Assembly (NCBI RefSeq): GCF_023100725.1
Contig: NZ_CP095501.1
Location: forward strand, 2,976,001-3,040,000
Source of the DNA: Arthrobacter antioxidans
Lineage (GTDB): Bacteria > Actinomycetota > Actinomycetes > Actinomycetales > Micrococcaceae
DNA: 64,000 bases
Reading direction: 5' to 3'
In this document: in pieces, positions 16,351 through 41,648 of the stretch
How positions within the stretch are numbered: position 1 is the first letter of the stretch
How the letters are laid out: every line of letters begins with the position of its first letter
Notes under the pieces: generated by a model
The model's input: only the letters and a program-made list of their open reading frames with translations
What the model was told of the DNA's origin: nothing
Database searches by the model: none
Made by a program: the position numbers and the translations under genes

Positions 16351-17172
16351 ATGGATGACGTGCCGAAGACTCCCGCTGCCCGCAGCTTCCCCCGCCTGCT
16401 CATCGCATCCTGCGCCTTCCTGTTCGTCTCCGGCTATTTCGTGGTGCGGTTCCCGGACGTCGAAGGTGCGAGCTACGCGTCCTACGGCTTCAATCTCCTG
16501 ATCGCCCTGCCGGCGTTCATCGCGCTCGTTCACCAGCTCGGTGCTGCCCGGGGCGTCGCCGCCCTCGCGGCCGTGTCCGTCTTCGGCTACCTGATCGAGG
16601 GCTTCGGCGTCGCCACACACCTGCCCTACGGCGAGTTCTACTACGGCGAACCGCTCGGCCCCACGATCCTCGGCCTCGTCCCGTACCTGCTCCCCCTCTC
16701 CTACGTGCCGCTGGTGATCGGCGCCGTGGCCGTTGTCTCGGGGGGTGGGTCCGCGCTGCGGAGGATCCTGCTCGGTGGGCTGCTGCTCGTGGTCATCGAC
16801 GGTGTCCTCGATCCCGGAGCGGTGTCCCTCGGCTTCTGGATCTGGCCCGGCGGTGGCCCCTACTACGGGGTCCCGCTCTCGAACTACGGAGGCTGGCTGA
16901 TCTCCGGGCTCGTCGCCTCCGCGCTGGTGACCTGGATCGGCGGGCGGCGCCTGACCGACTTCCCGCTCCGCCCGGGCCTGCTCGACAGCCTGCTCGTCTC
17001 CATGTTCCTGTGGCTCGGCGTCTGCGTCTTCTCGGGGCTCGTGTTCCCGGCGGTGCTCGCCGTCGCCCTGATCGTCCTCGTGGCGCGTCGACGGCTGCAG
17101 CTCACGCGCGCCGCAGTGGAGTCCGCGCCGGTTGCGGGCGGCACGACCGTGGACGCCACACAGCAGGCCTGA
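16351..17172 (+). CDS. cruF: Carotenoid biosynthesis membrane protein, CruF-type hydratase
   Basis: 273-residue polytopic protein (about seven hydrophobic segments) of the CruF family. In haloarchaea CruF hydrates bisanhydrobacterioruberin to bacterioruberin; the family also includes 1',2'-hydratases. Features include EGFGVATHLPYGEFYYGEPLG near residue 90 and VIDGVLDPGAVSLGFWIWPG near 150, with acidic residues inside or beside membrane segments as expected for this hydratase. It faces crtD-lyeJ across a repeat-rich gap; the three genes together make the C50 assignment convincing. The start is at ATG 16351; a weaker start could lie a few codons on. Confidence 0.85.
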   Translation: MDDVPKTPAARSFPRLLIASCAFLFVSGYFVVRFPDVEGASYASYGFNLLIALPAFIALVHQLGAARGVAALAAVSVFGYLIEGFGVATHLPYGEFYYGEPLGPTILGLVPYLLPLSYVPLVIGAVAVVSGGGSALRRILLGGLLLVVIDGVLDPGAVSLGFWIWPGGGPYYGVPLSNYGGWLISGLVASALVTWIGGRRLTDFPLRPGLLDSLLVSMFLWLGVCVFSGLVFPAVLAVALIVLVARRRLQLTRAAVESAPVAGGTTVDATQQA

Positions 17173-17280
17173 CCTACCCCGCCCTCCGCAACCGGGCGAC
17201 CAGGGCGACCACCGGCGGGCCTGCGGGCGACCCGGAGCGTCGGGCACCGCGAAACCCAAGCTGCCGCACGCAGGCCGCCC

Positions 17281-17534
17281 GGCAATCAGGCGGGGCGCAT
17301 GCAGGCCGTCCAGTCGTCAGCGGTCCGGGCAAGCAACCGGCACTCAGGCCGTCCGGCACGCAGACCGTCCGGCAATCAGGCGGGGCGCCATGCAGGCCGT
17401 TCAGCGGTCCGGGCTTCAGGCAACCGGCACTCAGGCGGGGCGCCATTCAGGCGGGGCGCCATTCAGGCCGTTCAGCGGTCCGGGCTTCAGGCAACCGGCA
17501 CTCAGGCGGGGCGCCATTCAGGCGGGGCGCCATT
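17281..17534. repeat. 71-bp tandem repeats between cruF and crtD
   Basis: The 397-bp gap 17173-17569 is mostly repeats. Two identical 71-bp units run 17393-17463 and 17464-17534. Each ends with the 16-mer AGGCGGGGCGCCATTC occurring twice. A degenerate earlier copy covers 17302-17392, and GCAATCAGGCGGGGCGC occurs near 17282 and 17372. No ORF with normal codon use, tRNA or hairpin-plus-T-run terminator was seen. The gap lies between two converging genes. Confidence 0.9.
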
Positions 17535-17569
17535 CAAGCCGTCGATCGGGCGCGAATACACTCAGGCCG

Positions 17570-18997
17570 TCAGACCGTGGACCCCAGGCGGGCCAGCAGT
17601 TTCTGCGTGGACATCATCGCGCCGCCGAGGACCGCTGGCAGCCCTCCACCGGGGTGGACGGAGGCCCCGACGCGCCACAGCCACGGGCGGAGCGGATCCG
17701 AATAGGGCGGGAGGTGGAACGGTCCGCTCATCCACGCCGGACGCACGGCCCCGTAGAGCGCCCCGCCGGCCGATCCGCGCTCGCCGAAGTAGCCAGGGTC
17801 GAGGATCTCGTGACTGCCGAAATAAGCCTCGATGGGTTCGGGCAGCCCGAGCACGCGCGTCGTCCGGTCGAGCTCGCGCCGCACGAACGGGTCCTCGAGC
17901 GAGTAGGTCCTGCCGTTGGCGGGTGCCGTGAGGAGCAGCGCCAGCGTCGCGGACCCGTTGGGGTAGACCCCGTGCGCCGGATAGTAGTTCGCGAAGGCCA
18001 TGGTCTGGTCGGGTTCCTCCCCGGCTTCCAGGCTCGCGTAGAGCGCGGCCGGATCGTCCGGCATGACCACGCCGTGGCGGGCGGTCCCCTCGGGGAGTGG
18101 CCTGGCCAGGACGGCATAGATCCCGATGGCGGAGCAGGTGAGCTTCCGCGGCGTCCTGGCGGTGCGCCCGCCCAGCAGCCCCGCCAGGCGGTGCGCGTCG
18201 AGACCGCTGACGACGGCGTCGGCCGGGTAACTGCCTGCTGCCGTGATGACCCGCCGTCGTCCGATGTCCTGGGCGGGCTCGCCCGTGCGGATCTCCACAC
18301 CGGCGTCCTCGGCGACGCGCTGGAGCGCCAGCACGAGTTCGTAGACGCCGCCCTCGGGGATCCAGACACCGTCCTGGGCCATGATGGCGGGCATGCTGGC
18401 GTAGAGGGCGGGTGTCCGGGTGGGGCTGACGCCTGCGTTGAGCGTGTGGATGGCGATGACCTCGCGGAGCCCGTCGGGCAGCCACGGCAGGCTGTCGAGA
18501 TAGCTCCGCGTCGTAAGCCTCCGGCCGTACAGCGCTCCGAGCCTGGCCAGCGCCGGGTAGGAGGCCTTCTCGAGCGGACCCGTGGTCAGCAGGCGCGACA
18601 CGTCCTCCCCGAGGATGCCGTGCTCTGCCGCGAAACGCGTCCAGGCGGGGTGCCACGGATGGCCCTCCGGCACGGGCAGCGCGCACGCCTCGCCGCGGTA
18701 GTAGTAGGTGCCGACCTCCGGCAGCCGTTCGAGGCGGAGACCGGCGATGTCCGCGGCCGGCGTCGCGCCGACGGGGGCGACGGCGTCGAGAAGGCGCAGG
18801 AGTTCCTGCCACACGCTCGGGAACGTGACCAGCGACGGCCCCGTGTCCATGCGCTGCCCCGAGACCTCGACGCGGCGGCTCTTGCCGCCCACGTGGTCCG
18901 AGGCCTCGACCAGCGTCACGCTGTGGCCCGCGCGACCGAGGAGGGCGGCGGCCGTCAGCCCACCGATACCGCCACCGACGACGACGACCCGGCTCAT
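17570..18997 (-). CDS. crtD: Carotenoid 3,4-desaturase CrtD (CrtI family)
   Basis: FAD-dependent desaturase of 475 residues. MSRVVVVGGGIGGLTAAALLGRAGHSVTLVEASDHVGGKSRR is the N-terminal FAD motif (in parts: VVVGGGIGGL, then HVGGKSRR); the C-terminal part has DPGYFGERGSAGGALYG and PPYSDPLRPWLWRVGASVHPGGG before GAMMSTQKLLARL. In bacterioruberin synthesis CrtD introduces the 3,4 double bonds after LyeJ adds C5 units. ATG 18997 overlaps the lyeJ stop by 4 nt. Linkage to lyeJ and cruF separates it from the crtI copy at the window start. Confidence 0.88.
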   Translation of the reverse strand: MSRVVVVGGGIGGLTAAALLGRAGHSVTLVEASDHVGGKSRRVEVSGQRMDTGPSLVTFPSVWQELLRLLDAVAPVGATPAADIAGLRLERLPEVGTYYYRGEACALPVPEGHPWHPAWTRFAAEHGILGEDVSRLLTTGPLEKASYPALARLGALYGRRLTTRSYLDSLPWLPDGLREVIAIHTLNAGVSPTRTPALYASMPAIMAQDGVWIPEGGVYELVLALQRVAEDAGVEIRTGEPAQDIGRRRVITAAGSYPADAVVSGLDAHRLAGLLGGRTARTPRKLTCSAIGIYAVLARPLPEGTARHGVVMPDDPAALYASLEAGEEPDQTMAFANYYPAHGVYPNGSATLALLLTAPANGRTYSLEDPFVRRELDRTTRVLGLPEPIEAYFGSHEILDPGYFGERGSAGGALYGAVRPAWMSGPFHLPPYSDPLRPWLWRVGASVHPGGGLPAVLGGAMMSTQKLLARLGSTV

Positions 18998-19860
18998 CGG
19001 TAGAGTCCCAGCGTCAGGGCGACGACGAGCTGGACGCCCGCGACGGTCCCGGCGACATACGGGAAGGCGATCGAGTACCGGTACAGCCGGTGGCCGGTCT
19101 CCGGGCGGGGATCCCGGTACAGGCCCAGCAGCAGCCAGCCCGCGATCAGGGTGTTCACGACGGCAACCGGGATGTTGACCACCGCGAAGCACGCCGTCGA
19201 CACCGCCCACCAGGCACCGCTCCAGGCGACGACGCCGCGGGGCCCGAGCCGCACCGCCGTCGTCATGATGCCCACCCCTCGGTCCTCGTCGATGTCCTGG
19301 ACGGCGTCGTAGGTGTGCTTCGCCGCACTCCAGGCCATCAGGCCGAGCGCGGCGGCCCAGGCCGGCGTGTCACCGAGGGCGTAGGGGACGAAGACGAGCG
19401 GGAACGCGTAGGCCGCGTTGCTGAGGGAGTCGAGGTACGGCCGGGCCTTGAAGCGCAGCGGCGGCGCGGAGTAGAAGACGAAGACCAGGGCGTACAGCGC
19501 GATCCATAGAAGGGCCGCCGTCGGGAGGGTGGCCGCGAACCATGCCAGGAACGGCAGGTTCGTGGCGAGCACGGCGATCCAGATGGCACGGACCTCCGAG
19601 GCCCTGATCCTGGCACCTTCGAGCGATCCCTTCCGCGGGTTCAGGGCATCGGTGTCCTGGTCGAAGATGTCGTTCACGCCGTAGATGAGCAGGTTGAACG
19701 GCAGGGTCAGCCAGAGAAGGAGCGCGAGGGCCTCCGACTCCCAGAACGTCCCGGTGAGCCACATTCCGACGACGCCGGTGCCGAGGGTGTTGATCCAGAG
19801 GACCGGCCGGGAGATGTGGACCATGCGCAGCGCTGCTGGCGCAAAACCTGCCTGGGGCAC
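18994..19860 (-). CDS. lyeJ: Lycopene elongase (UbiA prenyltransferase, LyeJ/CrtEb type)
   Basis: Integral membrane UbiA enzyme of 288 residues that adds C5 units to the ends of lycopene. Both Asp motifs are present: GVNDIFDQDTDALNPRKG (Asp64, Asp67, Asp71) and DAVQDIDEDRGVG (Asp185, Asp189, Asp193), with about eight membrane segments. I chose GTG 19860 because AGGAGG lies 9 nt upstream; the later ATG at 19824 has no site. CrtEb of decaprenoxanthin producers is similar, but no cyclase genes (crtYe/Yf) are nearby and crtD/cruF are, which favours the acyclic bacterioruberin elongase. Confidence 0.87.
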   Translation of the reverse strand: MPQAGFAPAALRMVHISRPVLWINTLGTGVVGMWLTGTFWESEALALLLWLTLPFNLLIYGVNDIFDQDTDALNPRKGSLEGARIRASEVRAIWIAVLATNLPFLAWFAATLPTAALLWIALYALVFVFYSAPPLRFKARPYLDSLSNAAYAFPLVFVPYALGDTPAWAAALGLMAWSAAKHTYDAVQDIDEDRGVGIMTTAVRLGPRGVVAWSGAWWAVSTACFAVVNIPVAVVNTLIAGWLLLGLYRDPRPETGHRLYRYSIAFPYVAGTVAGVQLVVALTLGLYR

Positions 19861-29813: not shown

Positions 29814-30778
29814 TGGCGCCACCCACGGAGGAGGCCACCACCGCCACGGCGACCGGCGGCGCGGCGGTCGTCGCTGCCGGCACGCTGTGCTGGCGGATCG
29901 AGAAGGGCGCGCTCGAGGTCCTGATCATCCACCGCCCCCGCTATCACGACTGGTCCTGGCCGAAGGGCAAGCTCGATCCGGGAGAGACGACGCCCGAATG
30001 CGCCGTCCGCGAGACCTTCGAGGAAGTGGGGCTGAGCGTGAGGCTCGGCATCCCGCTGGCGACGATCAACTACCCGGTGAACTCCGGCGACAAGGTGGTG
30101 TACTACTGGGCGGCGAGAATCGAACGGGCCACCCCGGTGCCGGACGGCACCGAGGTGGACGGCGCACGGTGGGCGTCCCCCGAGGAGGCACGCACCGTGC
30201 TGAGCAACCCGACCGACGTGGTGCCTCTCGATTCGCTCATCGAAGCGCACCGTGCACGGAATCTCCAGACGTGGCCCCTGATCGTGGTCCGTCATGCGAA
30301 GGCCAAGCCGCGTTCGTCCTGGAGCAGGGCCGAGGGTGAAAGACCTCTCGCCGCGACCGGCCGGCGGCAGGCCACCGCGGTGAGCCGCCTGCTCCAGGCA
30401 TGGACTCCCGAGCGGGTGGTGAGCAGCCCCTGGGTGCGGTGCGTCCAGACGATCTCGCCCTACGTGAAGCAGCGCAGCGCGAAGCTCAAGCTCCTCGACG
30501 CGCTGACCGAGCACGATGCCAAGAGGAAGCCGGCGCGCACCAGGGCCGTCATCGAGCGTCTGCTGGACAAGCGCAGGCCCGTGGCGATCTGCACCCACCG
30601 CCCGGTACTCCCGCTCGTCCTCTCGGTGCTGCGCGGCCACATGCCGGGCCACCTCCACGAGCTCCTGCCCGTCGAGGACCCGCACCTCGCGCCCGGCGAA
30701 GCAGTGATCTGCCAGGTCAGCAGCGCCAACCAGGGGCGCATCGTGTCCATGGAGCAGTTCCGCGCCTACGACGACTGA
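29813..30778 (+). CDS. mutT1: MutT1-type Nudix hydrolase fused to a histidine phosphatase
   Basis: 321 residues. The N-terminal Nudix domain holds GKLDPGETTPECAVRETFEEVG (box from the GX5E start to REXXEE). The C-terminal phosphoglycerate-mutase-like domain starts LIVVRHAKAKPRSSWSRAEG (phospho-accepting His in RHAK) with ICTHRPVLP near the end. Mycobacterial MutT1 has the same architecture and hydrolyses 8-oxo-GTP/dGTP and diadenosine polyphosphates. Translationally coupled to ppk, linking nucleotide pool cleaning with polyphosphate metabolism. Confidence 0.92.
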   Translation: MAPPTEEATTATATGGAAVVAAGTLCWRIEKGALEVLIIHRPRYHDWSWPKGKLDPGETTPECAVRETFEEVGLSVRLGIPLATINYPVNSGDKVVYYWAARIERATPVPDGTEVDGARWASPEEARTVLSNPTDVVPLDSLIEAHRARNLQTWPLIVVRHAKAKPRSSWSRAEGERPLAATGRRQATAVSRLLQAWTPERVVSSPWVRCVQTISPYVKQRSAKLKLLDALTEHDAKRKPARTRAVIERLLDKRRPVAICTHRPVLPLVLSVLRGHMPGHLHELLPVEDPHLAPGEAVICQVSSANQGRIVSMEQFRAYDD

Positions 30779-30854
30779 GATCAGGGCCCGCCTGCAGGGC
30801 CGCCGCGCCGGATCCTGACGCGCCACTTCCTGGCGGTGCGTCTGTCTCCTCGGT

Positions 30855-30908
30855 GTCCAGCCGTCCAGCCGTCCAGCCGTCCAGCCGTCCAGCCGTCCAG
30901 CCGTCCAG
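30855..30908. repeat. 8-bp tandem repeat CCGTCCAG
   Basis: A GTCCAG start followed by six perfect CCGTCCAG units (30861-30908), about 80 bp after mutT1 and 120 bp before the next ORF. The unit is not a multiple of three, so it is not a coding repeat. Copy number may vary by slippage. Confidence 0.95.
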
Positions 30909-31030
30909 CGAGGATAGATCAGTTCATTGGACGTCAGCGGTCCGATCGCCGCTGTTCATGCCTCGTTCATCCGGAGTGCCTAGTGTCGGACCCTCACGCA
31001 GCGACCGGCACCGACGACAGGACCGCTCCC

Positions 31031-31267
31031 ATGGCCGATGTGAAAAGCCTCGTACGGGCACTCGCACCGCACGAGATCGAGCAGATCCACCGGATCGGAC
31101 CAGCGGGGCCGCTCACACCGAAGCTCATGCACGCCATCGACCGCGCCGCCGGCGGCCCCGGCGAGGGCCGCGGCTACTACGTGTACGGCCGGCCGGCCGA
31201 CCCCGACCGTCCGCGACCGTTCGTCCTGCGCGACGACGTGTGTGCCGAACTGTTCGCCGGCCACTAG
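31031..31267 (+). CDS. Small conserved-looking hypothetical protein
   Basis: 78 residues starting MADVKSLVRALAPHEIEQIH, with no membrane segment, and ending FVLRDDVCAELFAGH. Codon use matches neighbours. TAGTGT near 30981 is a possible -10. No family recognised; the mix of His, Arg, Tyr and acidic residues suggests a compact soluble protein. Confidence 0.65.
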   Translation: MADVKSLVRALAPHEIEQIHRIGPAGPLTPKLMHAIDRAAGGPGEGRGYYVYGRPADPDRPRPFVLRDDVCAELFAGH

Positions 31268-31372
31268 GCCGACCGCTCCCTCACCGAGTCCCACGCCGGC
31301 TCCCACACCGGTTCGTCGGCCGATCCCCCGGCCGGATGGCCTCACCGCCCTACCCTCGGGGACGATGGTGGA

Positions 31373-32467
31373 GTGAAGCGATTCCCCGGCACTCGGGCTC
31401 CCCGTACTCCGATCACCGGAACTCCGGCCACGGCCGCCGATCCCGGCACTCCGGATGCCGGCGCACCGTCCCCGAGCAGGCCGGCCACGGTCACCGACCC
31501 CGGTGCTCCAGCTGCCGGCACCCCACTTCTCGGGACTCCGGCCACGGCCGCCGACCCCATGGGCCCGCCGTCGGGCGCCGTCCTGAGCCTGCGGAGGATC
31601 GGCCCCGGGTCCGGCCTCCCGCCCACCACCGCCATGCTCCGGCTCCTCGACGACGTGGAACGCGCGCGGGCGGCCAGGACCGTCGATGCCGAGCAGTCGG
31701 CGTCCTTCGTCGCGGGCCGATACCTCCTGCGTGCCCTCACTGCTGACCTGCTCGGGATCCGGGCAGACCTTCTCGTGTCCGGCTTCGAGTGCCCTGTCTG
31801 TGGACCGGACGGCGTGCCCGATCACGGCCGACCGGCATACCTGCTGCGCGGAGAACGCGTACCGCTGGCACTCAGCCTGTCCAGGACGGGGGGCTTCGTC
31901 CTGCTCGGAGCGCTCGCGACGCACGCTACGGCCGGGACACTGCGGACGCTCAGGGCGCAGGAGCCGCCTGGGACAGCCCGGACACCGCGGACGATCGGGA
32001 CGCAGGGGACAATCGTGGCGCAGGAGCCGCAGGAGCCGCGTGGGACAGCTCGGACGGCGGGGACCGACGGGCTGCTGGGGACGGTCGGGATGCTCGAACC
32101 GCACGGAGTGCATGAAGCGGTCGGGACGCCGACATCGCATACTGCTGTCCCGTCGGCCCGGCCGGGGCTCGGAGTGGACCTCACCACCGTCGCCGCAGTG
32201 GGTTTCGAGGGGTTCGACGACGTTGCCCTGACTCCCGGTGAGCGGACCATGGTCGGCGGACTCCCGGTCGGCGACCGGGCGACGGCCCGCGCAGTCCTGT
32301 GGGCCCGCAAGGAGGCCCTGATCAAGGCTCTCGGCACCGGCTTCGCCGATCGCGGCCCGGACTCGGTCGAAGTCCTGCGGGAGTGGAGGGTCACCGACCT
32401 CCCCTCGATCGGAGGCGACGCATTGGAGCCTCTGGGCCTCGTGGCCGCCGTCGCCATCGACCCCTGA
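31373..32467 (+). CDS. 4'-phosphopantetheinyl transferase with low-complexity insertions
   Basis: Transfers phosphopantetheine from CoA to a carrier-protein Ser. PPTase motifs are SFVAGRYLLRALTADLLG (around residue 105-122), PLALSLSRTGGFVLL (the family HS-like core), RPGLGVDLTTVAAV (metal-binding Asp) and AVLWARKEALIKALGTGF (WxxKEAhxK). At 364 residues it is far longer than usual Sfp-type enzymes (about 230). The excess is an N-terminal Pro/Thr/Ala stretch (about residues 10-65) and a Gly/Thr/Arg/Glu-rich insertion between the two metal motifs (about 186-240). GTG 31373 follows GGTGGA; ATG at codon 62 is an alternative start. It probably activates the NRPS at 34161. Confidence 0.83.
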   Translation: MKRFPGTRAPRTPITGTPATAADPGTPDAGAPSPSRPATVTDPGAPAAGTPLLGTPATAADPMGPPSGAVLSLRRIGPGSGLPPTTAMLRLLDDVERARAARTVDAEQSASFVAGRYLLRALTADLLGIRADLLVSGFECPVCGPDGVPDHGRPAYLLRGERVPLALSLSRTGGFVLLGALATHATAGTLRTLRAQEPPGTARTPRTIGTQGTIVAQEPQEPRGTARTAGTDGLLGTVGMLEPHGVHEAVGTPTSHTAVPSARPGLGVDLTTVAAVGFEGFDDVALTPGERTMVGGLPVGDRATARAVLWARKEALIKALGTGFADRGPDSVEVLREWRVTDLPSIGGDALEPLGLVAAVAIDP

Positions 32468-32796
32468 GGATCGGATCCGCCCCTGGGGGGACCGGGCCGG
32501 CAGGACGGCGTACCGGGCACGCAACGCGCCCCCACAGGACGGTGCACGGGGGCACGCAACGCGCCCCCACAGGACGGCGTACCGGGCACGCAACGCGCCC
32601 CCACAGGACGCGCGTACCGACGGTAACCGGCTCGGCCCCGCAGAACGCCGAGCCGGGGAAAACAGCGCGTCCCCACAGGACGGCGCACCGGGCACGACGA
32701 ACAGGTCGACACGACGTGGCACACGACCCCGAAAGGGGCAGGACCGGTGGGAGCAGCAGGACTGCGTGCCGCTGTCCGGGTGTGGGACGGCGCGCG
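32468..32796. repeat. 34/35-bp repeats between converging PPTase and M1 aminopeptidase genes
   Basis: 329 bp with no credible gene. CAGGACGGCGTACCGGGCAC-like units start at 32501, 32535, 32570, 32604 and 32676; the first three are followed by GCAACGCGCCCCCA and are spaced 34 and 35 bp. The fourth and fifth diverge at their ends. No IS ends or terminator with T-run found. Confidence 0.88.
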
Positions 32797-34164
32797 TTAC
32801 AGCGCGGGCAGCGCCTTCGAGAGCAGCCACGGCACCAGGAGGTCCCCGACGCCGGCGCCGGGGAGCGTGTGCACCGCGAACGCGATGAAGTCCGCAGTGG
32901 TGGCCGTCCCGAAGCGGTGCTCGCTGGACCAGGCGCGCAGCAGGGCGAAGAAGGCGTCGTCTCCGGCGGCTTTCCGGAGCGCGTGCAGCGTGAGGGCGCC
33001 ACGCTTGTAGACGCGGTCGTCGAACATGTCGACGGCGCCGGGGTCGGCGAGGACGAGGTCCTGGGGCGCCCTGCTGAGGCGCTGGTGGGTGGACCGCGCG
33101 TGGGAGTCCGCCGTCGTCGACCCGCTGGCCTCGGACCAGATCCACTCGGCGTAGCAGGCGAAGCCCTCGTGCAGCCAGATGTCCTGCCAGCGCGCCGCGG
33201 TGACGGAGTTGCCGAACCACTGGTGTGCGAGCTCGTGGGCGATCAGCCGCTGCGCCTCCCAGCCCTGATCGAGGTGGTTGCGCCCGATGATGGAGAGTGT
33301 CTGCGCCTCCAGGGGAATCTCGAGGTCGTCGTCGGCGACGACCACGAGGTACTGCGGGTAGGGGTATGGCCCGAAGCACTGCTCGAACACGGACATCATC
33401 TGGTGCTGGCGCGCCAGCGATGCCTTGGCCGCCGGGGCGAGGGACGGCGGCACGGCCGCGTACAGCGGGACGGGGGCGCCCGGCACTCGCGGCGCACCCG
33501 GGACGGGCAGTCCGACGGCGGGCCCCGCGGGATCGTTCAGTGCCACGAGGGCGTAACGACCGATCTGCACCGTCGCGAGGTAGGTGGCCATCGGCTCGGC
33601 CTGCTCGTAGGTCCAGGTGGTCCTGCTGGCGCGGTCGACGCGGGAGGCGAGGACGCCGTTGCAGACGGCCCGGTACCCGGCATCGGTGGTCACCGCGATC
33701 CGGTAGGCCGCCTTCTGCGAGGGGTGGTCGTTGCAGGGGAACCACGACGGCGCCCCGGTGGGCTGCCCGGCCACGAGGGCGCCGTCGGTCAGTTCCTCCC
33801 ACCCGATCTCGCCCCAAATGCCGGTGATGGGGCGGGGGTTGCCCTCGTACCGGATGTCGAGCGTGAACCCGGTACCGGCCGGCACCGGGTCGCGGAACCC
33901 GATGACGAGCTTGCCGGCGCGGTCCTTGAAGGACCGGATGCGGGCGGTGTCGGAGGTGACCCTCGTGGTGCGGAGCCCCTCGAGGTCGAGTTCGACGTGG
34001 TGCAGCCCCCGGTGCGCGGTCACGGTGAGGACGGCACGACCGGACAGGCGGTTACTCGAGAGCCGATAGTCCAGGGCGAGGTCGTAGTGGTCGACGCGAT
34101 AGGAGGTGCTGCCGTTGCTCGGGGTGTACGGGTCGGGCGCAAAGCTCTCGGAACTGGTGCTCAC
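32797..34164 (-). CDS. M1-family zinc metallo-aminopeptidase
   Basis: 455-residue soluble aminopeptidase. Zinc site: RLIAHELAHQWFGNSVTAAR (His310, Glu311, His314) with Glu333 in WLHEGFACYAEW. The exopeptidase loop, GxMEN in classical enzymes, reads LEIPLEAQTLS, as in a short actinobacterial subclass. No signal peptide. GTG 34164 overlaps the stop of the NRPS gene by 4 nt (GTGA), so the two are made together. It could trim or degrade the NRPS product; membrane Zn aminopeptidases acting on epsilon-poly-lysine are known in producers. Housekeeping peptide turnover is the alternative. Confidence 0.92.
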   Translation of the reverse strand: MSTSSESFAPDPYTPSNGSTSYRVDHYDLALDYRLSSNRLSGRAVLTVTAHRGLHHVELDLEGLRTTRVTSDTARIRSFKDRAGKLVIGFRDPVPAGTGFTLDIRYEGNPRPITGIWGEIGWEELTDGALVAGQPTGAPSWFPCNDHPSQKAAYRIAVTTDAGYRAVCNGVLASRVDRASRTTWTYEQAEPMATYLATVQIGRYALVALNDPAGPAVGLPVPGAPRVPGAPVPLYAAVPPSLAPAAKASLARQHQMMSVFEQCFGPYPYPQYLVVVADDDLEIPLEAQTLSIIGRNHLDQGWEAQRLIAHELAHQWFGNSVTAARWQDIWLHEGFACYAEWIWSEASGSTTADSHARSTHQRLSRAPQDLVLADPGAVDMFDDRVYKRGALTLHALRKAAGDDAFFALLRAWSSEHRFGTATTADFIAFAVHTLPGAGVGDLLVPWLLSKALPAL

Positions 34165-37100
34165 GCACCGTCCCCCGGGCCAGACCAGGAGCTGACCGGG
34201 TTCCCCATCCAGTAGGTCCCTGCAGGGACGGTCTCGCCGCGCATCACCAGCGACGCCGGCCCCACGGTGCCACCCTGGTCGATCCGGGCGGCGGGCAGGA
34301 TCACGCTGTGCGGACCGAGGGTTGCGCCTGCGGCGAGCTCGACGGTGTCCATGCTCATGATCCTGTCATGGAAGAGATGGGTCTGCACGACGCATCCGCG
34401 ATTGACAGTGGACCCGGTACCAAGGGTCACCAGGTCCGCTTCGGGCAGCCAGTAGCTCTCGCACCAGACACCGTGCCCGATCTTCGACCCCAGGGCCCGC
34501 AGCCACCAGACCAGCGACGGCGTCCCACTGGCGGCACGGGCGAACCACGGAGCGCTGACGCTCTCGATGAACGTGTCCACCACCTCGTTGCGCCAGATGA
34601 AGGAGCTCCACAGCGGATGCTCGCCCGCCGTGATCCGCCCGACCAGCAGCCACTTCGCGACGACGGCGCTCGCGGCCGCCACGGCGCCCAGCACCGTGAA
34701 CACGACGCCGCTCAGCAGGGCCGCCACGAGGTAGCCGCCCCACAGGGCGAGCGCATCGAAGGCCACGAGGGCCGCGGCGGCGATCGTGACGGTGAGGATG
34801 ACCGGCACCACGCGGCACAGTTCCCAGAACGCGCGCGCCGCCTTCAGGCGCCCGGGGGGCTGGAACGTGCGGCTCTGGTCCCCCGTCACGGCGAGCCGGC
34901 GCAGGCGGGAGGGCGGACTGCCCAGCCAGGAGCTGCCGGCCTTGGCCTTCGCCGGCGTGGCCGACAGCACCGCGACGAGCGAGTTCTTCGGTACGCGCCG
35001 ACCCGCCGACGTCATGCCCGAGTTGCCGAGGAAGGCGCGCCGGCCGATCTTCGCGGGCGCGATGCGCAGGTACCCGCCGCCGAGCTCGTAGGAGGCCACC
35101 ATGGTGTCGTCCGCGAGGAAGGCACCTTCGCCGATCGTGGTCATCTTCGGGATGAGGAGCACGGTGGACGCCTCGACGTTCCGGCCCACCCGCGCCCCGA
35201 GGAGCCGCAGCCAGACGGGCGTGAACAGGCTCGCGTAGAGCGGGAAGAGCAGGTCCCGCGCCATGTCGAGCGTGCGTTCCGTGGCCCAGATCTGCCAGCC
35301 GATGCGGCTGCGCGCTGGGTAATGGCCCTCCCGCAGGCCGATGCCCAGGATCCGGACCGTGGCGAGCACCAGGGCTGCGGTGGTGATGAGCCAGATGACG
35401 GCGGCGAGTGCCACCGGCCCCACGAGGGACGGCCACGCCGAGGACAGGGACGCGGCTCCGCGCAGCGCGGCCACGACGGGCAGCGCGGCGACGACGGCGG
35501 CGGCGTACGGGATGAGTGCGAGCGCGCCCGAGGCCGCGGCGAACGCCGCGAAGGTCAGTCGGGTGCGCAGGCGCGAGTGGGCCGGCGGGGCGTCGGGCCA
35601 GTCCTGCTTCGCCCTGCCCGCCCGGGTGGCGGGCGAACCCGCGAAGAGCTGTCCGGACCGGACAGCTCCCTGGACCGCCGAGCCCGGGGCCACCTCGGCG
35701 CCGGCGCCGATCCTCGCCCCCGGCATCAGCGTGCTGCGTGCCCCGACCACGGCTCCAGCGCCCACGGTGATCCCACCGATATGGATGCGGTCGCCGTCGA
35801 TCCACCAGCCCGAGAGGTCCACCTCCGGTTCCACGGACGCGCCGGCTCCGAGGGTGAGCAGGCCCGTGACGGGCGGGACGGAGTGGAGGTCGACGTCGGG
35901 CCCGATCCGCGCGCCCAGTGCCCGCGCGTAGAACTGCACCCAGGGTGCACCCGCGAGGCTGACCGCCCCGACGCTGTCCGAGATCTGTTCGGCGAGCCAG
36001 AGCCTCAGGTGCACCCTGCCGGACCGCGGATAGACGCCGGGCTCCACGCCGCCCAGCAGGAGGCGGGCCGCGAGGACGGACAGGGCCATCCGCCCGAACG
36101 GGCTGACGAACACGAGCCAGGACAGCGCCACCCACCACCAGGACAGGGTCGCCGCGGACGTCAGGACTCCGAGCCCGGCGAGGACGTTGCTCGCGATCAT
36201 CGCGTAGGTAAGCCAGCGCATGCCGGCGAGGAACTGCAGCGGGATGCCCATGATGGTCTGGAAGACCTGTGACCTGCGTGCGGTGCGCCGGACGGCACGT
36301 TCGGCGGCGGGTGGTTGCTCTACCCCGTCGCCCGTCTCCGCGGCGAAGGACGCGAGTGCGCCGAGCCGCGGATGGGCGTAGATGTCGGCGACCGTGATGA
36401 CCGGGTAGCGGGTGCGGATCAGCGACACGAGCCGGGCGGCCGCGAGGGACCCGCCGCCGTGCAGGAAGAAATCGGCGTCCTCGTCGGCCGGGACGGTGCC
36501 GAGGACGGCGGCCCACTGGTCCGCGATCCACCGGACGCGCGGGTCGAGGTCCTCCAGGCTGCCGGGCTCGCCCGGATCGCCGACGCCGGCGAGCGGCCAG
36601 GGCAGGGCGTTCCGGTCCACCTTGCCGCTGGTCTTCGTGGGCAGGGCGTCGGTGACGGTGAGCAGGGGGACGAGCGCCGCGGGTAACTCCTCGGCGAGCA
36701 GTGCGCGCAGGGCCGTGAGGTCGGGGTCGCCGTCGGCCGGGACGAGGTAGCCGACGAGGAGCTGGTTGCCCGACGGCGTCGTCCTGACGGCGGCGGCGGC
36801 GCCGGCGATCCCGGGCAGCGCCTGGAGTGCCGCATCCACCTCACCGAGTTCGATGCGGCGGCCGCCGAGCTTCACCTGGTCGTCAGCCCTGCCGACGAAG
36901 ACCAGTCCGGCCGCGTGCAGCTGCACGAGGTCGCCCGAACGGTAGGCGCGCCGCCATCCGAGCGAGGGCATCGGTGCGTACTTCTCGGCGTCCTTGGCCG
37001 GGTCCAGGTAGCGGGCCAGCCCGACTCCCCCGATGATGAGCTCGCCGGTGCCGCCCTCCGGCACGGGCAGGCCGGACTCGTCGACGACGGCGAGGTCCCA

Positions 37101-38081
37101 GCCGTCCAGGGGCAGGCCGATACGCACCGGGCCCTCGCCGCCGAGGCGTGCGGCGCAGGCGACGACGGTCGCCTCGGTGGGGCCGTAGGTGTTCCAGACC
37201 TCGCGGTCGTGGACGACCAGGCGCTGCGCGAGGTCCGGAGGGCATGCTTCCCCACCGAAGATGAGGAGGCGGACGTTCTCGAGGGAGTCGGCGGGCCACA
37301 GCGCCGCCAGCGTGGGCACGGTGGACACGGCGGTGATCCCGCGGGCGATCAACCAGGGACCGAGGTCCACGCCCGTGCGCACGAGGGCGCGCGGTGCCGG
37401 CACGAGGCATGCGCCGTGCCTCCAGGCCAGCCACATCTCCTCGCAGGAGGCGTCGAACGCGACGGAGAGGCCGGCCAGGACGCGGTCGGCGGGCCCGAGG
37501 GGCTCGTGCTGCAGGAACAGGCGTGCCTCCGCATCGACGAACGCGGCTGCCGACCGGTGCGAGACGGCGACGCCCTTCGGCGTGCCCGTGGAACCGGAGG
37601 TGAAGATGATCCAGGCGTCGTCGTCCGGTGTGGGGTCTCCGGAGATCGCCCGGCGTCCGCCCGGGCCGGGGATCACCGACAGGCCGTGCCCGACGACGAC
37701 GGCGACACGCGCTTCCGCGAACACGACGCGGGCGCGCTCGTCGGGGTCGTCGGCATCGACCGGCACATAGGCGGCACCTGCCGAGAGCACTCCGAGGATC
37801 GCGATGTACAGCTCGTTGGTGCCCGAGGGGAGGCGTACTCCGACGGTGTCGCCGCGACCCACACCGGCGGCGCGCAGGGTGGCGGCGAACCGGGCGGTGG
37901 CCGTCACCAGCTCCGTGTAGCTGAGGTCCTCGGTGCCGTCGTCGAGCGCCGAGGCGCTGGGGTGTTCCGCGGCCGTGGCCAGCAGGATGTCGAGAAGGGT
38001 GCGGGGTGATGGCGCCCGCCCGGACGCCATGAACCGCGCGGCGGCAGGGGCGGTGTGGGTCTCGGGCGAAGGTATGGTCAC
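34161..38081 (-). CDS. Pls/PosA-type membrane non-ribosomal peptide synthetase (poly-amino-acid synthetase-like)
   Basis: 1306 residues. Adenylation domain 30-500: IIFTSGSTGTPKGVAVSH (158-175), NTYGPTEATV (297-306), YRSGDL (380-385), GRADDQVKLGGRRIELGEV (397-415), Lys487 in TKTSGKVDR. Carrier domain 505-585 with phosphopantetheine Ser545 in FFLHGGGSLAAARL. The C-terminal 720 residues have about six membrane segments around three hexapeptide beta-helix lobes (about 755-830, 985-1085, 1200-1300) instead of condensation or thioesterase domains. This matches epsilon-poly-L-lysine synthetase (about 1319 residues). The hand-aligned specificity code is D-A-E-S-I-G-T-V-V-K, Lys-like. GTG 38081; possible -10 TAGACT at 38152. 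PPTase gene 1.7 kb away. Confidence 0.88.
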   Translation of the reverse strand: MTIPSPETHTAPAAARFMASGRAPSPRTLLDILLATAAEHPSASALDDGTEDLSYTELVTATARFAATLRAAGVGRGDTVGVRLPSGTNELYIAILGVLSAGAAYVPVDADDPDERARVVFAEARVAVVVGHGLSVIPGPGGRRAISGDPTPDDDAWIIFTSGSTGTPKGVAVSHRSAAAFVDAEARLFLQHEPLGPADRVLAGLSVAFDASCEEMWLAWRHGACLVPAPRALVRTGVDLGPWLIARGITAVSTVPTLAALWPADSLENVRLLIFGGEACPPDLAQRLVVHDREVWNTYGPTEATVVACAARLGGEGPVRIGLPLDGWDLAVVDESGLPVPEGGTGELIIGGVGLARYLDPAKDAEKYAPMPSLGWRRAYRSGDLVQLHAAGLVFVGRADDQVKLGGRRIELGEVDAALQALPGIAGAAAAVRTTPSGNQLLVGYLVPADGDPDLTALRALLAEELPAALVPLLTVTDALPTKTSGKVDRNALPWPLAGVGDPGEPGSLEDLDPRVRWIADQWAAVLGTVPADEDADFFLHGGGSLAAARLVSLIRTRYPVITVADIYAHPRLGALASFAAETGDGVEQPPAAERAVRRTARRSQVFQTIMGIPLQFLAGMRWLTYAMIASNVLAGLGVLTSAATLSWWWVALSWLVFVSPFGRMALSVLAARLLLGGVEPGVYPRSGRVHLRLWLAEQISDSVGAVSLAGAPWVQFYARALGARIGPDVDLHSVPPVTGLLTLGAGASVEPEVDLSGWWIDGDRIHIGGITVGAGAVVGARSTLMPGARIGAGAEVAPGSAVQGAVRSGQLFAGSPATRAGRAKQDWPDAPPAHSRLRTRLTFAAFAAASGALALIPYAAAVVAALPVVAALRGAASLSSAWPSLVGPVALAAVIWLITTAALVLATVRILGIGLREGHYPARSRIGWQIWATERTLDMARDLLFPLYASLFTPVWLRLLGARVGRNVEASTVLLIPKMTTIGEGAFLADDTMVASYELGGGYLRIAPAKIGRRAFLGNSGMTSAGRRVPKNSLVAVLSATPAKAKAGSSWLGSPPSRLRRLAVTGDQSRTFQPPGRLKAARAFWELCRVVPVILTVTIAAAALVAFDALALWGGYLVAALLSGVVFTVLGAVAAASAVVAKWLLVGRITAGEHPLWSSFIWRNEVVDTFIESVSAPWFARAASGTPSLVWWLRALGSKIGHGVWCESYWLPEADLVTLGTGSTVNRGCVVQTHLFHDRIMSMDTVELAAGATLGPHSVILPAARIDQGGTVGPASLVMRGETVPAGTYWMGNPVSSWSGPGDGA

Positions 38082-38147
38082 GGCTGGATTCTTCCGGTAC
38101 GAAGTGAACAGCAGGTGAGCGGCGACGCCGTCACCTGTACGGCCCGG

Positions 38148-38160
38148 GGGTAGTCTACCC
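38148..38160. promoter_or_regulatory. GGGTAG-T-CTACCC inverted repeat over the NRPS -10
   Basis: 13-bp inverted repeat containing minus-strand TAGACT (38152-38157), the likely -10 of the NRPS gene. Start site about 38145; leader of about 65 nt to GTG 38081. Confidence 0.45.
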
Positions 38161-38174
38161 GCGCACGACGCGGC

Positions 38175-38194
38175 CGAACGGGACGTCCCGTTCG
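38175..38194. promoter_or_regulatory. Perfect 20-bp palindrome in the NRPS/thyA divergent promoter
   Basis: CGAACGGGACGTCCCGTTCG reads the same on both strands. It sits 4 bp upstream of the thyA -10 and covers the -35 positions of both divergent promoters (17-bp spacing to TAGACT on either side). The half-site CGAAC is as in actinobacterial LexA boxes, but spacing is 10 rather than 4 bp, so another regulator is likelier. Confidence 0.75.
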
Positions 38195-38197
38195 TCC

Positions 38198-38203
38198 TAG
38201 ACT
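38198..38203 (+). promoter_or_regulatory. thyA -10 element
   Basis: TAGACT, then GGCCGG and GTG 38210; transcription should start at or next to the start codon (leaderless). No ribosome-binding site upstream. Confidence 0.55.
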
Positions 38204-38209
38204 GGCCGG

Positions 38210-39037
38210 GTGAGCACTCCCATCCCCACCCCCTACGAGGACCTGCTGCGCGACGTCATGGCGAACGGCGCGGCCAAGAGCGACAGGACGGGTACCGGTA
38301 CCCGGAGCGTGTTCGGCCGGCAGCTGCGCTTCGATCTCAGCGAGTCCTTCCCGCTCGTCACCACCAAACGTGTGCACTTCAAGTCCGTGGCGCTGGAGCT
38401 GCTCTGGTTCCTCCGCGGCGATTCCAACGTGCGCTGGCTACAGGAGCGCGGCGTGTCCATCTGGAACGAGTGGGCGGACGAGGCCGGCGAGCTCGGCCCC
38501 GTCTACGGCGTCCAGTGGCGGTCATGGCCCACGCCCGACGGCGGCCATATCGACCAGATCGCCGAGGTGGTCGAGGCGCTGAAGACGAACCCGGACTCCC
38601 GCCGCCACCTGGTCTCGGCCTGGAACGTCTCCGAGCTGCACACCATGGCGCTGCCGCCCTGCCACGTGTTCTTCCAGTTCTACGTGAGCCCCGGCGTGGA
38701 CGGCGGTCCCGGCCGGCTCTCCTGCCAGCTGTACCAGCGGTCCGCGGACACCTTCCTCGGGGTCCCGTTCAACATCGCCTCCTACGCCCTGCTGACCCTG
38801 ATGGTCGCCCAGCAGACCGGCCTCGAGCCCGGCGAGTTCATCTGGACCGGCGGTGACGTCCACGTGTACGACAACCACGTGGAGCAGGTCGCCGAGCAGC
38901 TGTCCCGGGAGCCCTACCCGTACCCGCGGATCGAGCTGAACCGGAAGCCGGACACCATCTTCGACTACGCCCTGGAGGACTTCGACGTGATCGACTACCA
39001 GCACCACCCCACCATCAAGGCCCCGGTGGCCGTATGA
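38210..39037 (+). CDS. thyA: Thymidylate synthase ThyA
   Basis: Methylates dUMP to dTMP with methylene-THF, giving dihydrofolate. 275 residues; nucleophile Cys151 in [13 protein letters not shown], dUMP-binding [30 protein letters not shown] and the Arg of [16 protein letters not shown] 38210 is set by the leaderless promoter. It overlaps folA by 4 nt, the classical pairing that regenerates THF. Divergent from the NRPS gene. Confidence 0.98.
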
Positions 39038-40508: not shown

Positions 40509-41648
40509 ATGACTTCAGCACCCGAGAGCTCTGCCCTGCCCTCCGTCGGTTTCGTGGGCTGGCGTGGCATGGTGGGCTCCGTCCTCATGCAGCGTCTCCA
40601 GGACGAGGGCGACTTCGCCAGGATCAACCCCGTGTTCTTCTCGACCTCGGCCGCCGGGGGTGCCGCGCCGCAGTTCGCGGAGGGCACCGGTGTGCTGCAG
40701 GACGCGTACGACGTCGAGACGCTCGCCAAGCTGCCGATCATCGTCACCGCCCAGGGCGGTGACTACACGGCCGAGGTCTACCCCAAGCTGCGCGACGCCG
40801 GGTGGCAGGGGCTGTGGCTGGATGCCGCCTCCACGCTGCGCATGGAGCAGGACAGCATCATCGTGCTCGACCCGGTCAACCGCGACGCCATCGACGTCGG
40901 ACTCGCGCGCGGCGTCCGCGATTTCATCGGCGGCAACTGCACGGTCTCCTGCATGCTCATGGGGCTGGGCGGGCTCTTCCGCAACGGTCTCGTGGAGTGG
41001 GGCACGTCGATGACCTATCAGGCGGCTTCGGGCGGCGGTGCCCGCCACATGCGGGAGCTGCTCAACCAGTTCGGGGCGCTCCACGGCAGCGTGGCCGTCA
41101 ATCTCGACGACCCCGCCTCCGCGATCCTGGACATCGACCGTGCGATCCTCGCCAAGCAGCGGCACCCGAGCCTCGAAGCGAGCCATTTCGGTGTGCCGTT
41201 GGCCGGGTCCGTCATCCCCTGGATCGACAGCGACCTCGGCAACGGTGTGTCCCGGGAGGAATGGAAGGCCGGGGCGGAGACCAACAAGATCCTCGGCACC
41301 GCGACGCGCATCCCGTTCGACGGCCTCTGCGTCCGGGTGGGTGCCATGCGCTCGCACTCGCAGGCGCTGACCCTGAAGCTGACACAGGACCTGCCGGTCA
41401 GCGAGATCGAGTCGATCATCGCAGCGGACAACGAGTGGGTACGCGTCATCCCGAACACAAAGGCCGACACGATCGCCGGTCTGACGCCCGTCGCGGCGAC
41501 CGGCTCGCTGGAGGTCCCCGTCGGCCGGATCCGAAAGCTCGAGATGGGCCCGGAGTACATCAGCGCGTTCACGGTGGGCGACCAGCTGCTGTGGGGAGCG
41601 GCCGAGCCACTCCGCCGGATGCTGATGATCGCCACCGGCAACCTCTGA
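40509..41648 (+). CDS. asd: Aspartate-semialdehyde dehydrogenase (Gram-negative type)
   Basis: Second step of the aspartate pathway to Lys, Thr, Met and diaminopimelate: reduces aspartyl phosphate with NADPH. 379 residues: [18 protein letters not shown] at the N-terminus (NADP fold), catalytic Cys144 in [31 protein letters not shown] and [12 protein letters not shown]. It resembles the proteobacterial-type enzyme rather than the shorter Asd usually clustered with lysC in Actinobacteria, so a second copy elsewhere is possible. Lysine supply for the NRPS at 34161 is an interesting but unproven link. Confidence 0.93.

Follow-up and report, generated by a model that had tools for sequence, protein, structure and literature searches.

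A Predicted Epsilon-Poly-L-Lysine Synthetase Locus in Arthrobacter antioxidans with a Linked Peptidase and Phosphopantetheinyl Transferase

Epsilon-poly-L-lysine (epsilon-PL) is produced with Streptomyces for use as a food preservative, and genes for relatives of its synthetase, Pls, that carry a lysine (Lys) specificity code are common. The closest described systems, for which we draw on passages of the cited papers, are those of Streptomyces albulus and Corynebacterium variabile. In S. albulus, the peptidase gene pldII overlaps pls by 4 bp within a single operon (PMC4361855), and PldII has been reported to be the main enzyme that degrades epsilon-PL and to serve self-protection (PMC9223678). 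Jiang et al. (2021) described a Pls-peptidase operon in C. variabile, the Pls of which is 51% identical to that of S. albulus and made epsilon-PL in Streptomyces coelicolor, and listed Arthrobacter among the genera with Pls homologs (PMC8117764); Pls homologs in this genus are thus already in print. Here we analyzed a stretch of 64,000 nucleotides from Arthrobacter antioxidans (contig NZ_CP095501.1, positions 2,976,001 to 3,040,000), referred to below as the window, which contains a pls-like gene, an M1 metallopeptidase gene, and a gene for a 4'-phosphopantetheinyl transferase. The locus resembles that of S. albulus in the adenylation-carrier-membrane architecture of its synthetase, in the pocket code DAESIGTVVK, and in a downstream peptidase gene overlapping by 4 bp, and it resembles that of C. 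variabile in combining a peptidase operon with a lysine pocket in a non-filamentous actinobacterium; the C. variabile product was demonstrated in S. coelicolor, and that of the present locus is predicted. We consider it very probable that this locus makes epsilon-PL or a shorter epsilon-oligolysine by means of the transferase, the synthetase with its membrane domain, and a protective M1 enzyme. Added here, and not found in the literature examined, are the linked transferase, the peptidase motif, the empty site, and the place of the enzyme in a second widespread Lys-code group.

The synthetase and its adenylation pocket

The pls gene (34161..38081, minus strand) encodes an epsilon-poly-lysine-synthetase-like nonribosomal peptide synthetase of 1306 residues, as read from its open reading frame (ORF) with a GTG start and from matches to Pfam and TIGR02353. 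An adenylation (A) domain at residues 1-498 (36588..38081, minus strand) was delimited by PF00501, alignment to the structure 7wew, and the code reading. It is followed by a carrier (T) domain (PF00550) at residues 517-579 (36345..36533, minus strand), with the carrier serine, Ser545, in the motif HGGGSL (codon at 36447-36449), and by a membrane polymerization domain at residues 606-1296 (34194..36266, minus strand). The Pfam search of the protein returned AMP-binding at residues 36-357, PP-binding at 517-579, and one Hexapep match at 770-803, with AMP-binding_C at 414-487 scoring slightly below its cut-off, and found no condensation or thioesterase families. The NCBIfam model TIGR02353 of the Pls/PosA terminal domain matched residues 606-1296 over its full length (profile positions 1-695 of 695) with 699.8 bits, compared to a curated cut-off of 423.1. 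When residues 598-1306 were modeled by AlphaFold2 together with 30 relatives (mean predicted local distance difference test score, 86.5; predicted template modeling score, 0.88), the long helices were arranged as three pairs that alternate with three beta-helix-type strand stretches, or lobes, and these six helices probably cross the membrane. By hydropathy, the first helix pair is not visible in the window protein alone, and averaging over 81 sequences reveals one segment at that place. Structure matches to the model were to single hexapeptide acyltransferase lobes. Taken together, these features place the protein in the Pls/PosA family. They also bear out a prior reading of the window from sequence only, which had described an ORF of this length, strand, and position with single A and carrier domains, no condensation or thioesterase domain, about six membrane segments around three hexapeptide lobes, and a resemblance to epsilon-poly-lysine synthetase; the structure prediction that it had called for gave the arrangement described for PosA (PMC10522769). 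The nearest named relatives of the protein are from Arthrobacter and are 95% identical.

Hand assignment of the ten pocket residues in the window A domain gave DAESIGTVVK. These letters are those that the sequence-only reading had given (D210 to K487), and all ten equal the aligned letters of 7wew, which we take to be the A domain from S. albulus Pls; identity between the two A domains is 67% across 497 columns. The Lys-like code of that reading is therefore matched to the Pls pocket at ten positions rather than six. For the bacitracin Lys code, our comparison is drawn from statements in two papers and not from an alignment. The code DAESIGTVVK was present in all 80 of the closest loci, a sample biased to near relatives, and in 96 of the 101 ORFs read, which include a few genomes twice; the other five ORFs are same-genus paralogs. 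The genus also offers a contrast in four paralogs with the code DFECLSVVTK, whose identity to 7wew is 36-38%. In an A-domain tree, the window lies inside a 144-member Lys-code clade (support, 0.985), and nine sequences with other codes lie outside it. The identity of the pocket to that of 7wew suggests that the A domain activates L-lysine. Neither of the outcomes named beforehand as telling against an epsilon-poly-lysine-like synthetase, a non-basic substrate or clustering with relatives that make another product, was found, and the pocket, the Lys-code clade, and the pls/pldII layout all argue for such an enzyme.

The linked peptidase and transferase

Downstream of pls is a PldII-like M1 metallopeptidase gene (32797..34164, minus strand; PF01433 and PF17900) encoding 455 residues, with the zinc site HELAH-18-E at residues 310-333 and the sequence IPLEAQ just before it. 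The stop of pls and the start of this gene share the 4 bp GTGA (34161..34164, minus strand), and among 141 Lys-type loci with an M1 gene the bases at the pls stop were GTGA in 57 and ATGA in 15. The likeness to PldII was judged from gene position, as a peptidase gene overlapping the end of pls; from the same position we infer that PldII is itself an M1 enzyme. The name PldII was carried by none of the 120 matches listed in a search by name.

The M1 gene accompanied the Lys code closely. It was downstream of pls and on the same strand in all 80 of the closest loci, at a distance of no more than 350 bp in 75 and of 629-2170 bp in five. Among 246 genomes drawn from across the class, 72 TIGR02353 matches were obtained, and all except the window itself (71) were fetched. 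Seventeen of the 72 (e.g., L138 and L149-L155; L and G numbers denote loci and genomes) are in ORFs with no usable A-domain alignment (14 with gaps only and 3 with a misaligned string) and were excluded from code counts. Among the 50 class-sample enzymes with DAESIGTVVK, the window included, 47 have a same-strand M1 gene no more than 350 bp away; the Lys-code enzymes lacking an adjacent one were L164, which has a pls-type M1 on another contig, L182, and L198. Conversely, none of the five full-length enzymes with other codes had an adjacent M1 gene (47/50 versus 0/5; Fisher P = 1.6e-5, with kinship ignored). Four of these (L203-L206; code DFEY[IL]GTVTK) have an M1 with the motif TALETQ, 36-37% identical, approximately 950 bp downstream, and the fifth has none. 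Within the genus, 18 of 38 genomes have an M1 ortholog, and they coincide with the 18 that carry a Lys-type pls, including G016 and G024, where pls was seen in pieces only and the code was not read. No M1 ortholog was found in G008 and G017, which have the DFECLSVVTK type only, or in the 18 genomes with no TIGR02353 match over the cut-off.

The zinc site HExxH-18-E was kept in all 147 M1 sequences read, that of the window among them. Just before it, 146 of 161 M1s beside Lys-type pls genes (a count that takes in 18 from the Streptomyces loci and one whose neighboring pls is fragmented) have P-x-E followed by FG-x-NH, or IG or LG in place of FG. This motif was absent from 19 of 20 unlinked M1s, the twentieth being a pls-type M1 that G176 carries on a separate contig, and from the four M1s near DFEY-type enzymes; 17 of the 20 unlinked M1s read [YF]ALE[TNSA]Q. 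The motif may therefore be a substrate-site signature of a polylysine-cutting clade.

Convergent with the M1 gene is a gene for an Sfp-type 4'-phosphopantetheinyl transferase (31373..32467, plus strand), the true start of which is uncertain within a frame open from 31268. Sfp-type transferases carry the motifs GxD and W..KEA..K, and GVD and WARKEALIK are present here, with PF01648 matching residues 265-337 at 37.7 bits against a cut-off of 25. Screening the flanks of the 80 closest loci with a profile built for this purpose detected such a gene in 32, of which 28 have it 1.2-2.3 kb past the pls ORF and just beyond the M1 gene, two approximately 4 kb past, and two at the upstream end; it is opposite in strand in 31 of the 32, and the match in L078 is weak. 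By our own assignment of genus names to orders, these loci comprise 32 of 38 from Micrococcales and 0 of 42 from others. In the class sample, with flanks of 3.5 kb, the transferase was found at 12 of 49 Lys-code loci. Altogether 62 transferase ORFs were collected, of which 46 were given to Pfam; 38 matched PF01648, and fewer matched two N-terminal transferase families. Within the genus, 18 of the 38 genomes had a match, comprising 18 of the 20 with a Pls-type gene and none of the 18 without one (P = 5.7e-9, with kinship ignored); the match in G014 is weak and unlinked. Of the 22 genus loci fetched, 17 have the transferase, among them three without an M1 gene: two DFECLSVVTK paralogs (of four) and the second copy in G021. 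This indicates that the transferase tracks the synthetase, while the peptidase tracks the lysine code. The genome from which the window comes has three PF01648 and four PP-binding matches, of which one other pair is approximately 1.2 kb apart.

The transferase adjoins pls in the window, whereas none was found in 20 fetched Streptomyces loci of approximately 9 kb. A transferase linked to pls was not found among the papers listed in literature searches, the scope of which left out most subscription papers, so we do not claim it as unreported; in PMC4361855, a paper with both pls and transferase terms, the relevant passage concerns Gene Ontology enrichment. Several repeats lie in or near this gene: a 35-bp unit repeated 5.6 times between the transferase and M1 genes (32501-32696), and tandem repeats of 57 and 72 bp, both multiples of three, inside the transferase ORF (31416-31558 and 31956-32108). 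The middle of the transferase was skipped in most alignments to relatives.

Two kinds of Lys-code synthetase and the likely product

We examined how the window enzyme is related to the Pls of Streptomyces. With the 7wew A domain as the query, 166 of 392 Streptomyces genomes gave a match at an E value of 1e-150 or better; among the matches listed, which are not all of them, 23 were 73-93% identical to 7wew and the rest 65-71%. Sixteen of the 23 high-identity enzymes were fetched; all have DAESIGTVVK, and 14 have an M1 gene directly downstream. In a full-length tree these 16 form a clade with a support of 1.0. The window Pls differs from this 7wew-like kind in being 53-56% identical to its 16 members in the best segment, and in its M1, which is 43-47% identical to the 14 M1s beside them and has the motif PxEAQ where they have PVENQ. 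An identity of 53-56% does not argue against an epsilon-PL product, because the C. variabile enzyme, the product of which was demonstrated, and an Epichloe enzyme are both 51% identical to S. albulus Pls in the published passages. The C. variabile enzyme itself, sought by the exact 25-base pattern of a published primer, was found in 0 of 401 family genomes. In L182 (G059) the A domain is 60% identical to 7wew, yet the protein as a whole reaches only 39% identity to the window Pls in its best segment; it is possibly a domain chimera. L105, the second copy in G021, represents a further kind of Lys-like Pls within the genus; it has the code DAESIGTVIK, is 51% identical to the window Pls, and has a transferase but no M1 gene.

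Epsilon-PL is the likeliest product of the locus. What was observed directly is the gene order, the domains, the pocket, and that the three genes occur together, and for the enzymatic steps we reason from S. albulus. The linked transferase would place the phosphopantetheine arm on Ser545, and the A domain, judging from its pocket, would activate L-lysine and load it onto this arm. By analogy with Pls, the membrane domain would then repeatedly couple the carboxylate of the loaded residue with the side-chain amine of a further lysine, delivering the chain at the membrane. The M1 enzyme, coupled to the synthetase through the 4-bp overlap, would cut the polymer and protect the producer, as was reported for PldII of S. 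albulus.

Several observations weigh against this assignment. The window enzyme falls outside the 7wew-like clade, and the remaining Lys-code group that includes it, from which L105, L182, and L198 are apart, has a support of only 0.477 in the full-length tree; L182, in spite of its Lys code, is in a separate five-member clade. Both Lys-code kinds occur together in four Streptomyces genomes (L260/L267, L262/L268, L263/L269, and L255/L270), one of the four second copies reading DAESVGTVVK. The position of the window outside the clade and this coexistence suggest that the roles of the two kinds may differ. For the peptidase, the strict motif is absent from 15 of the 161 linked M1s; PldII is described as being outside the membrane (PMC9223678), and a hydrophobic N terminus was found in 0 of 147 M1s, by a hydropathy test only and with four of the M1s not beside Lys-type enzymes. 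Inactivation of Pld and PldII left epsilon-PL production unchanged, according to a review (PMC8506220). Finally, no polymer was obtained from C. variabile or from Corynebacterium glutamicum expressing its Pls (PMC8117764).

A broad reading is that the window group represents a second polylysine system, distinct from the 7wew-like one and spread across Actinobacteria, in which a pls-peptidase block is mobile and, in Micrococcales, brings its own transferase. On this reading the system, kept beside the 7wew-like Pls in Streptomyces, would serve a role other than that of a secreted preservative polymer, and the lack of a matching transferase could also account for the absence of polymer from C. 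glutamicum expressing a coryneform Pls; we put this forward as a tentative and rather unlikely proposal. A narrower alternative, that lysine is used while the product differs from the secreted 25-35-mer as a short oligolysine, an end-esterified chain, or a cell-attached form, we hold to be distinctly unlikely. It would account for the separate clades, for the presence of both kinds in the same genomes, and for the unlike M1 motifs, and Pls can esterify chain ends (PMC9606270); the identical pocket, the same kind of M1 operon, and the epsilon-PL made by the no less divergent C. variabile enzyme favor the conventional polymer.

Activation of another diamino acid, such as ornithine, diaminobutyrate, or diaminopropionate, is very improbable. 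The PosA and PDAP/PDAB synthetases share the adenylation, carrier, and terminal transmembrane domains of Pls, and the PosA pocket, DMEHNGTVSK, has a Lys domain as the nearest code, yet ornithine is preferred (PMC10522769). By a published rule, however, pocket position 2 separates these enzymes, with Ala for lysine in Pls, Met for ornithine in PosA, and Phe in the PDAP/PDAB synthetases; the window has Ala211 there, and its A domain scores 672 bits against 7wew compared to approximately 180 bits against the PosA chains 8g95 and 8g97. A decaying or silent locus, with no product whatever the conditions, is scarcely credible: the gene is patchy in the genus (a TIGR02353 match over the cut-off in 20 of 38 genomes), and pls is fragmented in G024 and sits on a short contig in G016, assembly faults being a possible cause in both, but the window pls, M1, and transferase genes are all open with their motifs kept, and 308 alignment columns are invariant over 81 sequences.

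If Lys-code Pls genes do make the polymer, epsilon-PL may be a widespread and mostly undetected actinobacterial product, and the linked transferase would be a candidate for making silent Pls enzymes work in other hosts.

A presence/absence block and its surroundings

The three genes lie in a block (30779..38190) with conserved flanks. Ten of the 18 congeners lacking pls were fetched, and in each of them homology to the window ended at 30776-30787 and restarted at 38188-38218, demonstrating that a three-gene block of approximately 7.4 kb is absent from that site. In five of the ten (L231 and L233-L236), the site holds 1.6-2.1 kb of other DNA, and it may take in different cargo; in L231 it holds a MerR/TipAS regulator. 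In some congeners pls lies at other places, where thyA and the polyphosphate kinase gene are not its neighbors. A perfect 8-bp unit is repeated 6.9 times inside the block (30855-30909).

An aspartate-semialdehyde dehydrogenase gene at 40509-41648 was considered as a source of lysine supply and rejected. By tblastn it was found in only 11 close relatives among the 102 loci L006-L107 (flanks of up to 6 kb), and the flank that begins with thyA remains in genomes that lack pls, so we take it to reflect local synteny. Elsewhere in the window, positions 16351-19210 encode a carotenoid biosynthesis protein (PF04240) and an amino-oxidase-type protein, in agreement with a remark in the sequence-only reading that the organism appeared to be rich in carotenoids.

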